NCBI GenBank assembly: GCA_007694035.1
Contig: RECM01000197.1
Span: forward strand, 1 to 62,348
Source of the DNA: Balneolaceae bacterium
GTDB lineage: Bacteria; Bacteroidota; Rhodothermia; Balneolales; Cyclonatronaceae
Direction: 5' to 3'
Length of the DNA: 62,348 nucleotides
Under the pieces are notes generated by a model. The model worked only from the letters and a program-made list of their open reading frames with translations. It had not been told where the DNA came from and made no database searches. A program made the translations under genes and the position numbers. Below, piece after piece: positions 42,452-60,903 of this stretch; the first letter of the stretch is position 1; each line of letters opens with the position of its first letter.

Positions 42452-42994
42452 CATTCCCGTACAGCCCGGTTGATCAGCGATTGGCAACTTTATGCTCCAT
42501 AGCCGGTAAGACTGTGCCGGTGTGCCGGTTACAATCACAGGTTCCAGCTAATTAAGAATAACCGTTCCGGAAAGATAGGCGGAAATGGCGCTGTCATAAG
42601 TCCTTTTTTTATGTGATGCAGCCCTGATTTTTAACAGAAAATGCCTGTTTTCATGGCCTGGATGTTATCATTTCGACACAAATTTAAGTTTTTTATATAT
42701 TTATGACATTTAAGTGTCGAAGCGCTTCCCAACCGCATCTTGATTAAGAAACATTGCATAATAATCGTAATTTATTTAGGCATAAACATCTTTTTACCTA
42801 ATTATTTTACTGCCCCTCCGGGCATAATCTATGCACATGTGAACTTATTTGTATAGAAAGGGTTGACATGTTGTGCCGAATTGACAATACTACAGCCGGA
42901 CAACACGCCTGATCTTAATCAACGCTGCTTGGATACTCAGAACACATATAACCGCAACATCCCGAACGGAAATCCGACTTCCGCGGGCAATACT
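42452..42994 (+). promoter_or_regulatory. Upstream part of the ilv-leu leader/promoter region
   Basis: A 543-base AT-rich region without a supported gene. It contains an inverted repeat TCGACAC (42673-42679) and GTGTCGA (42714-42720), a near-palindrome around GACATTTAAGTGTC just at the right arm, a small dyad GCATA-atc-TATGC near 42823, and AAAGGG before an ATG (42868) that opens only a 14-codon ORF. The promoter must be here but no clear TAnnTTTG box is seen. Confidence 0.45.
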
Positions 42995-43108
42995 GTGGTT
43001 TCTGCTGTCCCTGCCTTCAATGGTGCCACCCCCGACATCATTATCAGCATTATTATTATCAGCCTACTAGTCCTAGGGATTTTCTCTGAGCTAATTATTA
43101 TTAGCTGA
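42995..43108 (+). CDS. Ile/Leu-rich leader peptide of the ilv-leu operon
   Basis: An in-frame ORF ends at 43108 with 25 codons that hold 11 Ile and 4 Leu, plus Val (IIISIIIISLLVLGIFSE, then LIIIS-stop). All four Leu codons are CTA, a codon rarely used in the adjacent ilvB, where CTG, CTC and CTT dominate. This is the pattern of a ribosome-stalling leader peptide, as in enterobacterial ilv and leu attenuators. The start is uncertain: no in-frame ATG exists; GTG 42995 gives 38 residues, while TTG 42863 (track) or TTG 42929 would give longer forms. The stop codon lies 6 bases before RNA segment 2. Confidence 0.75.
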   Translation: MVSAVPAFNGATPDIIISIIIISLLVLGIFSELIIIS

Positions 43109-43220
43109 AATAAAGAGGTCATCCCTTAGCCTGCCTTCCGCAACACTGCATTCTCACTCACTTACAAGACAAGCACCAAGGGTTGACCTCAGAAGAAAAC
43201 TGTGAACTTCATAAGGTCAA
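43073..43220 (+). promoter_or_regulatory. Candidate attenuator: mutually exclusive RNA segments 1-4
   Basis: Four segments can pair in alternating ways. Segment 1 CTAGGGAT (43073-43080, within the Leu/Ile codons) pairs with ATCCCTTAG of segment 2 (one bulge). Segment 2 GAGGTCATCCCTTAG (43115-43129) pairs with segment 3 CCAAGGGTTGACCTC (43176-43190) over 12-13 bp. Segment 3 TTGACCT (43183-43189) pairs perfectly with segment 4 AGGTCAA (43214-43220). A 7-bp hairpin AGCTAAT-tatt-ATTAGCT (43089-43106) is nested in the 1:2 loop. This is the 1:2 / 2:3 / 3:4 logic of classical attenuators. No U-run follows the 3:4 stem. Confidence 0.6.
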
Positions 43221-43222
43221 AA

Positions 43223-43372
43223 ATGCAAAACCAACGAATCAAAAACGGAACACCCAAAGGCTCTACGCCGGCAATTACGGTACTGTATCCAAATTCTGAC
43301 AGTGATTTACTACGCTATGCCCGCTGCTGCATGATCCAAACCGGAGACTTTTTAACCGGTTTTCACCGATAA
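43223..43372 (+). CDS. Small ORF between leader peptide and ilvB (49 aa)
   Basis: An ATG ORF of 49 codons ([20 protein letters not shown], ending [10 protein letters not shown]) too short for the track. AAGG lies 6 bases before the ATG, and that AAGG is inside RNA segment 4, so pairing with segment 3 would hide the ribosome-binding site. Its last codons cover a terminator-like hairpin (43338-43363). I recognise no family. It may be translated only when branched-chain amino acids are scarce, acting as a second relay; equally it may be a chance ORF. Confidence 0.4.
43338..43363 (+). terminator. Terminator-like hairpin just before ilvB
   Basis: AAACCGG (43338-43344) and CCGGTTT (43356-43362) form a perfect 7-bp stem with an 11-base loop, and the 3' arm ends in TTTT. 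It lies about 48 bases before the ilvB ATG and inside the small ORF. GAAAACTG at 43195-43202 could pair with CGGTTTTC here as an alternative. A weak terminator is plausible. Confidence 0.4.
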
Positions 43373-43410
43373 ATCCGATATCACTTCACCGATTCAAAAC
43401 ACCCATCATT

Positions 43411-45177
43411 ATGTCCGTCACAGTAAAAACATCACAACAGGCTCAGGTAAAAACTGAAACAAACGGCCACGCTGCAGGAATTACCACCAAAACAATGACC
43501 GGCGGCGAGATTCTCATTCAAAGCCTTATTGATATGGAAGTCGATACGGTTTTTGGCTATCCCGGTGGTGTGGTGCTCGGGGTTTACGACGATCTCTACA
43601 GGCATCCGGAACTCCGGCACATTCTTGTTCGCCATGAACAGGGCGGCACCCATGCCGCCGAAGGCTATGCCCGAATGACCGGAAAACCAGGCGTTGTGCT
43701 GGTCACATCCGGGCCCGGCGCCACCAATACGGTTACCGGCATCGCCAATGCCTACATGGATTCCATCCCCATGGTCATTTTTACAGGCCAGGTGCCATCT
43801 ACCATGATCGGCAACGACGCGTTCCAGGAGGCCGACATTGTGGGCATCACCCGGCCGATTACCAAGCACAGTTATCTGGTTAAAAAGGTTGAAGACCTGC
43901 CGAAAATTATCCGTGAGGCGTTTCATATAGCCGCCACCGGCCGTCCCGGACCTGTACTGGTGGACCTTCCCAAAGACATGCTTTTCAGCAAAGGTGAGTA
44001 TCAGAAGAATCATCCTATTAAAATTCGCGGTTACCACCAGGAGGTGGATGGAAACGCCGCACAGATCCGGAAAGCAGCCGAACTGATCCGTGTGGCAGAA
44101 CGTCCGCTGATCTATGCCGGTGGTGGTGTGGTAACCGGCGAGGCCTGGGAAGAGCTCCGTGAGCTGGCATACAAAACGGGTATTCCCGTAACCACAACCC
44201 TTATGGGCCTGGGAACCTTCCCGGAATCGCATCCCCAGGCACTGGGCATGCTGGGCATGCACGGCACATGGTACGCCAACATGGCGATTCAGAGCTGTGA
44301 TGTGCTCATTGCCGTGGGAGCCCGATTCGACGACCGTGTTACCGGCCGTGTGAAGGACTTCTCCCCCCTTTCCCGCAAAATTCATATCGACATTGATCCC
44401 GCCTGTATCAATAAAAACGTGGAAGTGGAAGTACCGGTAATCGGCCATGTGAAAAACGTACTCACACAGCTCATACCGCAGGTAGGAAAAGCCGAAATAA
44501 GCGGTTGGATCAGCCAGCTTGATACCTGGAGAAAAGAACATCCGCTCAGGTGCCCGATGGAGAAGGATGTGATCACCCCCCAGTGGATGATCCGCCGGAT
44601 TTCAGAATTCACCAATGGTGATGCCATCGTGGTTACCGATGTGGGCCAGCACCAGATGTGGGCGGCCCAACACTACACCTACAACCATCCGCGCTCCTGG
44701 ATATCCTCGGGCGGGCTTGGTACTATGGGTTTCGGCTTCCCGGCGGCAATGGGTGCCAAGATCGCCTGCCCCGACCGCGAGGTGGTTTGCATTACCGGCG
44801 ACGGCGGATATCAGATGACCACCTTTGAGCTGGCAACGGCCGTTCATTACAAAGTGCCCGTGAAGATTGCCATTATGAACAACGGCTACCTCGGCATGGT
44901 AAGGCAGTGGCAGCAGCTTTTCTACGGCGGGCGCTACTCCCACTCCCACCTGGCTCCGGCCAACCCCGATTTCGTGAAGATGGCCGAAAGCTATGGTGCA
45001 GTCGGCATGCGGGCCCGTACCCCGGAAGAGCTCGACAAGGTGCTCGAAGAGGCCATGAAGATTACCGATGTACCGGTGGTGATGGATATCGTTGTGCCGG
45101 AGGGTTATAACGTATATCCGATGATCCCACCCGGAGCGGCTGTACACGAAATGGTTGAAGAAGACCCCAAACCCTGA
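43411..45177 (+). CDS. ilvB: Acetolactate synthase large subunit
   Basis: A 588-residue ThDP enzyme condensing pyruvate with pyruvate or 2-oxobutyrate, the first common step of valine/leucine and isoleucine synthesis. The ThDP-activating Glu is in [17 protein letters not shown]; the ThDP/Mg motif is [13 protein letters not shown] with [16 protein letters not shown]-type middle domain [10 protein letters not shown]. The first 22 residues are a poorly conserved extension. It opens the structural part of the operon after the leader and is followed after 6 bases by ilvN. Confidence 0.97.
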
Positions 45178-59305: not shown

Positions 59306-60562
59306 CTACGCAACAACAGGTTCCGGTTCCTGATACATCATTTCCCGCCGGGCAACGGTGTTCAGCCATGTAATTCCGATCACCACCAGAATAATTGCAA
59401 AAAGCACTATGGTCTGGTTGATGTTCAGGATATTGAACTCAAGCAGAAGCGCCGCGATCACCACGGAAACCGATTCGCAGAAAGTAAGGTACAGCCACTC
59501 CGAACTAAAAATTCGTCCGCGGAAACTGTCGGGGGCACGTTTCTGGATCAATACTGTACTCATCACCCAGTTGGCCCCCGAACCACAGTGGGCAATAAAC
59601 ACAAAAAGAAGCATCACACCCAGGCTGCCTGTGAACCCGACCACCACATAGGCTGTTCCTGCCGTGATCATGGCGAAACCGGTGGCCCTGATCCAGTTCC
59701 GCTCATCCTTGAAGAAGCGGCGGATCATGATAGGCCCGACCGCTGTGCCGAGTCCGCGACTGGAGTAAAGCAGCCCGATTCCGATGCTGCCCATTAGCAG
59801 TACCTCCTCCGACAGCAGGATGAGCAGATAGACCAGGCCCCCGAGCATAATCGAGAACGATCCTTTGGCCAGCGACGGCCGCAGGATCTGGGGACTGTTA
59901 ACCAGGAAAGCCAGCCCGTCTTTAATGCCACGGAACGGATTTGACAGGTTGGCGATCTGTTCCGCATCGCGTACATGCGGGATGACCGCCTTCCAGATGA
60001 ACCAGGCGGAGAGCACATAGGTTACAGCGTTGGTCATAAAAACCACGTCCCGGCCCAGCAGGGCTGTTGCAAGTCCGCCGATACCCATTCCCATGGTGAA
60101 GATTACGCTCCAGCTCAGGTTCGAAAGGATATTGGCATAAACCAGCTCATCAGGCGTGGTCACATTCGGAATGGAGGACGATTTGGCCGGCTCAAAAACA
60201 GCCGAACCCATCATTTGCAGGGCGGTTAACACAAAAGCGGCCCAGAGCCACTCCGGCGTACCGATAAACAAAAATCCCAGTACCACAACTGCCCGGAAGA
60301 GATCGCAAAGAATCATTAGCGTACGCCGGTCGAAACGGTCGGAAACATAGCCGGCCAGTGGCGAAAAAACGGCAAAACTGATCATTTTCACCACAATAAG
60401 CGCGCCCAGTACCAGTTCGGAATCGGAATAGTCGACCACAAGGGCATAGATGGCAAGCAGGCCGAACCAGTCTCCAAAGTTGGAAACAACCTGGCTCAGC
60501 CAGAGGCGGCGGTAGTTATGGTTGTACCTGACAAGGTCGAGGTATGGACGGAAGGTGCGCAA
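59306..60562 (-). CDS. MFS transporter (MFS_3/EntS-like)
   Basis: A 418-residue major facilitator with about 12 membrane segments. It opens with RYNHNYRRLWLSQVVSNFGD, holds the loop 2-3 motif GYVSDRFDRRTLMILCDLFR and resembles MFS_3 exporters such as EntS and macrolide exporters. The substrate is unknown. The only start in frame is TTG 60562; no ribosome-binding site is visible, and a heptamer array begins 10 bases upstream, so the native 5' end or promoter may have been altered. Divergent from the methyltransferase gene. Confidence 0.9.
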   Translation of the reverse strand: MRTFRPYLDLVRYNHNYRRLWLSQVVSNFGDWFGLLAIYALVVDYSDSELVLGALIVVKMISFAVFSPLAGYVSDRFDRRTLMILCDLFRAVVVLGFLFIGTPEWLWAAFVLTALQMMGSAVFEPAKSSSIPNVTTPDELVYANILSNLSWSVIFTMGMGIGGLATALLGRDVVFMTNAVTYVLSAWFIWKAVIPHVRDAEQIANLSNPFRGIKDGLAFLVNSPQILRPSLAKGSFSIMLGGLVYLLILLSEEVLLMGSIGIGLLYSSRGLGTAVGPIMIRRFFKDERNWIRATGFAMITAGTAYVVVGFTGSLGVMLLFVFIAHCGSGANWVMSTVLIQKRAPDSFRGRIFSSEWLYLTFCESVSVVIAALLLEFNILNINQTIVLFAIILVVIGITWLNTVARREMMYQEPEPVVA

Positions 60563-60572
60563 TGGGGGGATT

Positions 60573-60677
60573 TAGTGGGTAGTGGGTAGTGGGTAGTGAG
60601 TATTGAGACACAAGACTCAAGACTCAAGACACAAGACATAAGACATAAGACGTGAGACATCAGATATCAGGGTTCAG
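60573..60677 (+). repeat. Composite heptamer array upstream of the MFS gene (15 units)
   Basis: Fifteen contiguous 7-bp units in one phase: TAGTGGG three times, TAGTGAG, TATTGAG, ACACAAG, ACTCAAG twice, ACACAAG, ACATAAG twice, ACGTGAG, ACATCAG, ATATCAG, GGTTCAG. The order from TAGTGAG-like to ACACAAG-like is the same as at leuA. The rest of the 60563-60903 spacer is G-rich, then AT-rich, without a gene; TATCATTTG near 60876 resembles a -7 box for the methyltransferase with one extra base. Confidence 0.93.
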
Positions 60678-60903
60678 GGATTGGTTGGGGTTGGAGCGGG
60701 GTGGTTGTGGAAGATCAGGTACTGACGGTTTGTGAAAGTTATGGGTTTTGAAGGTAAATAGGGTAGGATTCGTTCCCCTGGGAAATTTGTGGGGGGATGC
60801 ACTGACTGAAAAACTGAATTCTTTCTGTTTCAACTATCATTTGCCATTTCGGGTAATGAATTTCATGTGATGAACAGGGCGGGCGATTTCCTATTTTACG
60901 TGT

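Follow-up and report, generated by a model that had tools for sequence, protein, structure and literature searches.

A predicted start-covering leader-peptide attenuator upstream of ilvB in Balneolales, and a small reading frame through which it may act

The window (the whole stretch of DNA analysed here, 62,348 nucleotides) contains a gene cluster that begins with ilvB, preceded by a leader peptide ORF, four pairing segments and a small ORF that ends 38 nt before the ilvB ATG (Table 1). Matches to ilvC, citramalate synthase, leuA and leuB, plus a leuC-like gene, were found 3' of ilvB, and the nearest named relatives of IlvB belong to Balneolales and Balneolaceae MAGs. The elements reported in the first-pass annotation of this DNA, namely AAGG within segment 4, the ATG at 43223, a 49-codon ORF extending over a hairpin and TTTT, and ilvB downstream, are all present in the sequence. 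The small-ORF frame is also listed from an upstream GTG at 43202. An upstream in-frame start of ilvB was considered and rejected: the frame is open from 43306, yet it has no ATG before 43411. Between 40000 and 46000, no Rfam match was obtained up to an E value of 1, including the ilvB and leu/ilv leader families. For comparison we used the congener G009 and the regions upstream of ilvB at about 45 further loci of Balneolales, the genus being represented by two species, that of the window and G009.

Table 1. Features upstream of and including ilvB in the window
Feature	Positions	Strand	Basis
Predicted promoter, TTGACA-17-AATACT	42863..42891	+	Consensus scan; both boxes kept in congener G009
Leader peptide ORF, putative TTG start, tail IIISIIIISLLVLGIFSELIIIS then stop	42929..43108	+	Sequence
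Segment 1, CTAGGGATTTTCTCT, within leader ORF	43073..43087	+	1:2 duplex
Segment 2, GAGGTCATCCCTTAG, 6 nt 3' of leader stop	43115..43129	+	2:3 duplex, 44-locus pair table
Segment 3, GGGTTGACCTC	43180..43190	+	Duplexes, 44-locus pair table
Segment 4 and small-ORF start, AAGGTCAAAAATG	43213..43225	+	Duplex, accessibility, conservation
Small ORF, 49 codons, TAA 43370-43372	43223..43372	+	Sequence
Terminator-like hairpin, AAACCGG/CCGGTTT + TTTT, in last codons of small ORF	43338..43363	+	
C-rich, G-poor rut-like stretch, gated start to ilvB	43223..43410	+	C/G 1.86
ilvB, acetolactate synthase large subunit, first gene of cluster	43411..45177	+	TIGR00118, E 4e-257

Judged by its sequence, the locus appears to be a leader-peptide attenuator of the type known from amino-acid operons, with codons for the pathway products placed upstream and combined with mutually exclusive pairings. 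The last 22 leader codons include 12-16 for Ile, Leu or Val in nearly all Balneolales leaders examined (one leader, L101, was anchored by hand for this count). Leader tails are biased to CTA and ATT codons, and CTA accounts for 207 of the 281 Leu codons in tails across the order. In the genes of the window CTA makes up 3.3% of Leu codons, and it is used for all four in the leader tail. Such a leader would read the supply of Ile, Leu and Val, leucine by way of the rare CTA. In an alignment read by eye, the leader frame of the window and its TTG start are kept in G009. Inspection by eye also suggests that TTG rather than ATG is often the start of the leader peptide in Balneolales, as at 42929. 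As a separate observation in family f2 (L119 of G058, at about 1313-1480, and other loci), the conserved leader residues SG, encoded by TCTGGC, appear to coincide with segment 1, and RNA pairing to GCCAGA seems to be what fixes them.

The ilvB leaders of Balneolales (about 45) share a four-segment attenuator with 1:2, 2:3 and 3:4 pairings. The 1:2 duplex has an energy of -15.6 kcal/mol in the window, within a range of -10 to -28 kcal/mol across the order, and the 2:3 duplex of the window reaches -24.3 kcal/mol. Counting of pairs on anchored arms in 44 loci revealed a near-invariant core of 2:3 and variable outer pairs with partial compensation, while genus g27 of family f3 forms a 2:3 helix of different sequence (GTCATTCCTGA/TCGGGAGTGAC). 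The leader stop lies 5-15 nt 5' of segment 2, and segment 4 coincides with the first start codon 3' of segment 3, both throughout the order. A covariance model of the element matched 55 of the 244 genomes of the class, all of them Balneolales and with one forward copy each, just upstream of ilvB wherever the place of ilvB could be located. Opposite-strand matches of the model (R1) overlap forward matches and were taken as palindrome echoes. The genome of the window carries the element once, and a search of that genome found no other occurrence. These data document an order-wide branched-chain amino acid (BCAA) leader-peptide attenuator that has no Rfam match, in a lineage without clear Shine-Dalgarno usage in the window.

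In the window, AGGTCAA (43214-43220) of segment 4 can pair with TTGACCT (43183-43189), and AATGCA (43222-43227) is able to pair with TGCATT (43147-43152) as well. The start is predicted to be less accessible when segment 3 is present (0.39) than without it (0.61). The same tendency is predicted for the 44 loci, where the mean unpaired fraction of the start is 0.45 with segment 3, 0.69 without it and 0.55 with shuffled sequence, the start region falling below its shuffled-upstream accessibility in 37 loci. According to these models, the repressing 3:4 hairpin would cover the start of the next ORF, as in translational attenuators that act by sequestering a start, and in the window the start under control would be that of the small ORF. 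Pairing of 3:4 over this start, as claimed in the first-pass annotation, is supported by predicted duplexes, by the retention of start and stems in the congener, and by a closely similar start in G106. The claim of AAGG (43213-43216, overlapping AGGTCAA) as ribosome site fares less well: because Shine-Dalgarno usage is not evident in the genes of the window (6/45, against a background of 10%), this motif is weak evidence, and more weight belongs to how the start region pairs.

Which reading frame owns the start codon behind segment 4 differs among relatives. It opens ilvB in most Balneolales, among them family f2, f1-g2 and several genera of f5, where it lies 24-56 nt 3' of segment 3 and leaves no room for a terminator. 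In the window, G009, G106 (which belongs to another family and has a closely similar start, AAAGGTCAAACAATGCAAAA) and several f5 genera, a small ORF takes the place of the ilvB start, and ilvB follows 13-128 nt past its stop. Mapped on the IlvB tree, the arrangement with a small ORF needs 4-6 changes. Genus g34 includes both states: the small ORF is found in four species and in G111, its ATG is lost in L107, and L108 (G119) uses the homologous ATG to start ilvB itself. Because the homologous ATG starts ilvB in G119, the start behind segment 4 is very likely real, at least in g34, and small ORF and ilvB are very likely interchangeable at this position. The inserted stretch is also present in L107, L109, L113 and L115, with no ORF that reaches ilvB. 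The first-pass annotation regarded loss of the ORF from relatives that keep the stems as evidence against its proposal; most such relatives do lack the ORF, and ilvB's start takes its place in them, which favours the start-gating half of the proposal. Across these relatives the gated start alternates between an enzyme gene and a small ORF, a natural series with which simple reporters could tell translational control, Rho polarity and reinitiation apart. Two of the g34 loci, L103 (G112, 1229-1330) and L151 (G111), contain extra stretches similar to GTCCATGAC and GTCATGGACATT between small ORF and ilvB, which may be duplications.

Comparison of the window with G009 revealed 94% identity in the leader tail and 91% from the leader stop to the ATG of the small ORF, while the body of the small ORF is 56% identical with many gaps, the spacer to ilvB 59%, the upstream intergenic region 69% and the start of ilvB 85%. 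Since stems and small-ORF start are at 91-94% and their flanks at 56-69%, the switch seems to be still kept, though the start is not that of ilvB. Without its first three codons, the body scores slightly over chance (0.54 vs 0.48 +/- 0.02 for shuffled sequence). The frame is open in both species, with lengths one codon apart and CGATAA at both ends. Openness in the window alone is unremarkable (probability 0.14-0.15 in dinucleotide shuffles), and the joint chance is about 0.06 for window and G009, 0.02 when the length condition is added post hoc, and about 0.003 post hoc for window, G009 and G106, all these values having been calculated after the data were seen. A function of the peptide was considered and rejected: 90 of 500 shuffles align as well as the peptides of window and G009 do, most pairs of g34 small ORFs have a pN/pS of 0.6-0.9, and a Pfam search returned no match. 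A plasmid match for the small ORF was likewise not found. Of the conservation expected in the first-pass annotation, the start and the openness of the frame hold in G009, while peptide and body do not. Since the frame is open and the peptide unconserved, the small ORF, if active, would act by being translated; on sequence grounds it is at most a passage ORF and not a conserved peptide.

The start region of ilvB itself is predicted to be 80% unpaired, so any control that the attenuator still has over ilvB must reach it by a relay. Conservation of the attenuator argues for such control, under which a termination step between the two is likelier than pure translational control; the unpaired ilvB start points the same way. 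We favour, with moderate confidence, an explanation in which the start-sequestering attenuator gates the small ORF, whose translation in turn controls ilvB. The sequences show the anatomy, its conservation across the order and the exchange of start codons; each regulatory step, of attenuator and relay alike, is one that we infer. With plentiful amino acids, the ribosome at the leader stop would mask segment 2, and 3:4 would cover the first start codon; with the leader ribosome stalled, 2:3 would form and the start behind segment 4 would be free. Translation of the small ORF would then let transcription or ribosomes go on to ilvB, whereas the untranslated ORF would lead to premature termination between its start and ilvB. 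In this soda-lake-type bacterium, the start predicted to be covered belongs to an extra small frame, through which the signal is probably passed on. The relay is plausible, and its effector may be Rho, an intrinsic hairpin or reinitiation; the favoured explanation covers all three, and the confidence given to it overlaps with theirs.

If Rho is the effector, the C-rich stretch of the untranslated small ORF would load it and transcription would stop before or in ilvB, with translation acting as a shield. The C/G ratio of the stretch from gated start to ilvB corresponds to the 99.6th percentile of sense coding windows (the ratio in G009 is 2.39), and in 10 of the 11 loci with a small ORF the excess of C over G in the inserted stretch is at or above the 96.6th percentile. 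A Rho gene is present in the genome of the window, its match being over the cut-off, and there are published parallels in toiL-topAI (PMC12121999) and the Mtb Mbox (PMC12810186). However, base composition is weak evidence of a rut site, and C-richness could be a general way to keep leaders unstructured. We consider Rho polarity possible but doubtful and, at the locus of the window, an equal alternative to an intrinsic terminator.

An intrinsic terminator disarmed by the ribosome translating the small ORF was the effector proposed in the first-pass annotation, and the hairpin does lie within the last 12 codons of that ORF. It consists of a 7-bp inverted repeat with an 11-nt loop (43338-43362), and TTTT occupies 43360-43363. 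Because the stem takes up three of the four T, the hairpin scores poorly as an intrinsic terminator. Its d-score is -42 (3 of 60 shuffles as good), the fold of 43330-43372 has -7.9 kcal/mol and a z of -1.25, and neither generic nor strict scans for a hairpin with a T-run picked up the site, at which no stable hairpin is directly followed by a U-tract. Several gene-end hairpins of the window, which alone served as yardstick for terminators, have -12 to -25 kcal/mol. A perfect 7-bp stem with TTTT is rare: a search of both strands of the 62 kb gave four sites, of which two or three fall within genes. The step is therefore weak or unsupported in the genome of the window, where no usable U-tract follows the stem. 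The congener, in contrast, has a hairpin of terminator grade (GCCC-CACA-GGGC-CG-TTTTTT, d = +4.1, 0 of 60 shuffles) that does show a stable stem followed by a U-tract, at the same position of the ORF despite sequence turnover (118-137 nt from the ATG, and 119-131 nt in the window). Sites of hairpin and T-run also lie inside the small ORF of three related g34 species, each reached by 1-2 of 100 shuffles under another scoring. Against this, no terminator-like site was found by d-score in the small ORFs of G106, G108, G125 and G126. The pattern is suggestive of a terminator at the small-ORF end as a feature of the genus, not a general one, and an intrinsic terminator as the effector appears rather unlikely. 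The same low confidence applies to the complete two-ORF relay, in which stalling would free a small ORF of indifferent sequence and passing ribosomes would disarm a terminator before ilvB. If true, it would represent a translational attenuator turned transcriptional, with a terminator that is intrinsic in the congener and weaker in the window.

It is likewise improbable, in our estimate, that the small ORF is incidental, an insertion having decoupled ilvB or left residual control by mRNA decay, with no relay. The unconserved peptide, the near-chance openness of single frames and the lost or broken ORF in the sister species L107 and L108 agree with such an origin, but decoupling does not lead one to expect stems and start so strongly kept in the congener, nor an arrangement that recurs in several lineages. 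Least probable is termination-reinitiation, in which most translation of ilvB would come from ribosomes that have just finished the small ORF 13-48 nt before it. The short stop-to-ATG gaps in 8 of 11 cases (38, 48, 13, 17, 27, 27, 28 and 15 nt) and the ppe2 precedent (PMC11260477) speak for it; the wider gaps in L103, L113 and L115 (74-128 nt) and an open, unstructured ilvB start, at which independent initiation is expected, speak against it.

Control of ilvB through translation of the small ORF, the reading favoured here, has relatives among known systems. E. coli toiL-topAI links sensing by a uORF to sequestration of a start and to Rho: the uORF alters pairing over the downstream start, and the untranslated downstream ORF undergoes Rho termination (PMC12121999). 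In that system, however, the uORF responds to antibiotics and gates the gene directly, whereas in the window the gated small ORF precedes ilvB and the leader carries BCAA codons. An RNA switch gating a small ORF, as proposed for the window, is known from M. tuberculosis, where the Mbox gates one before pe20 with Rho termination (PMC12810186); in the ppe2 case a B12 switch controls the uORF, and PPE2 depends on translation of that uORF through reinitiation (PMC11260477). The relay was therefore called new with some overstatement in the first-pass annotation, given these published switches in which translation of a gated small ORF decides on the downstream gene. Their sensor is a riboswitch and that of the window a translated leader peptide; novelty would accordingly lie in this replacement. 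The Salmonella mgtCBRU leader with mgtM/mgtP/mgtQ shares serial short ORFs and alternative pairings (1:2/3:4 vs 2:3) with the locus of the window, but it responds to other signals and has neither a BCAA leader nor a small ORF gated by the hairpins of the first leader (PMC8092293). Corynebacterium ilvB-II, ilvB-OMG and the Leptospira ilvB motif combine a BCAA-rich uORF with an attenuator before ilvB, as here; in the parts of the source consulted they are assigned to transcription attenuation or have unconfirmed function, and no second ORF is described (PMC10272879). The LEU element and the translational T-boxes of Actinobacteria are likewise predicted to join amino-acid sensing to Shine-Dalgarno sequestration, by a leuA pseudoknot or a tRNA-binding element instead of a four-segment leader (PMC1262725). 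In the limited literature set searched, we found no publication on ribosome-mediated BCAA attenuation in Bacteroidetes.

On the sense strand of 60563-60862, the leader upstream of the minus-strand gene at 59306-60562, the sequence is even more C-rich and G-poor (0.207) than that before ilvB, and CTTATGT-like repeats near 60616-60668 lie in complement-side hairpin matches of this leader.
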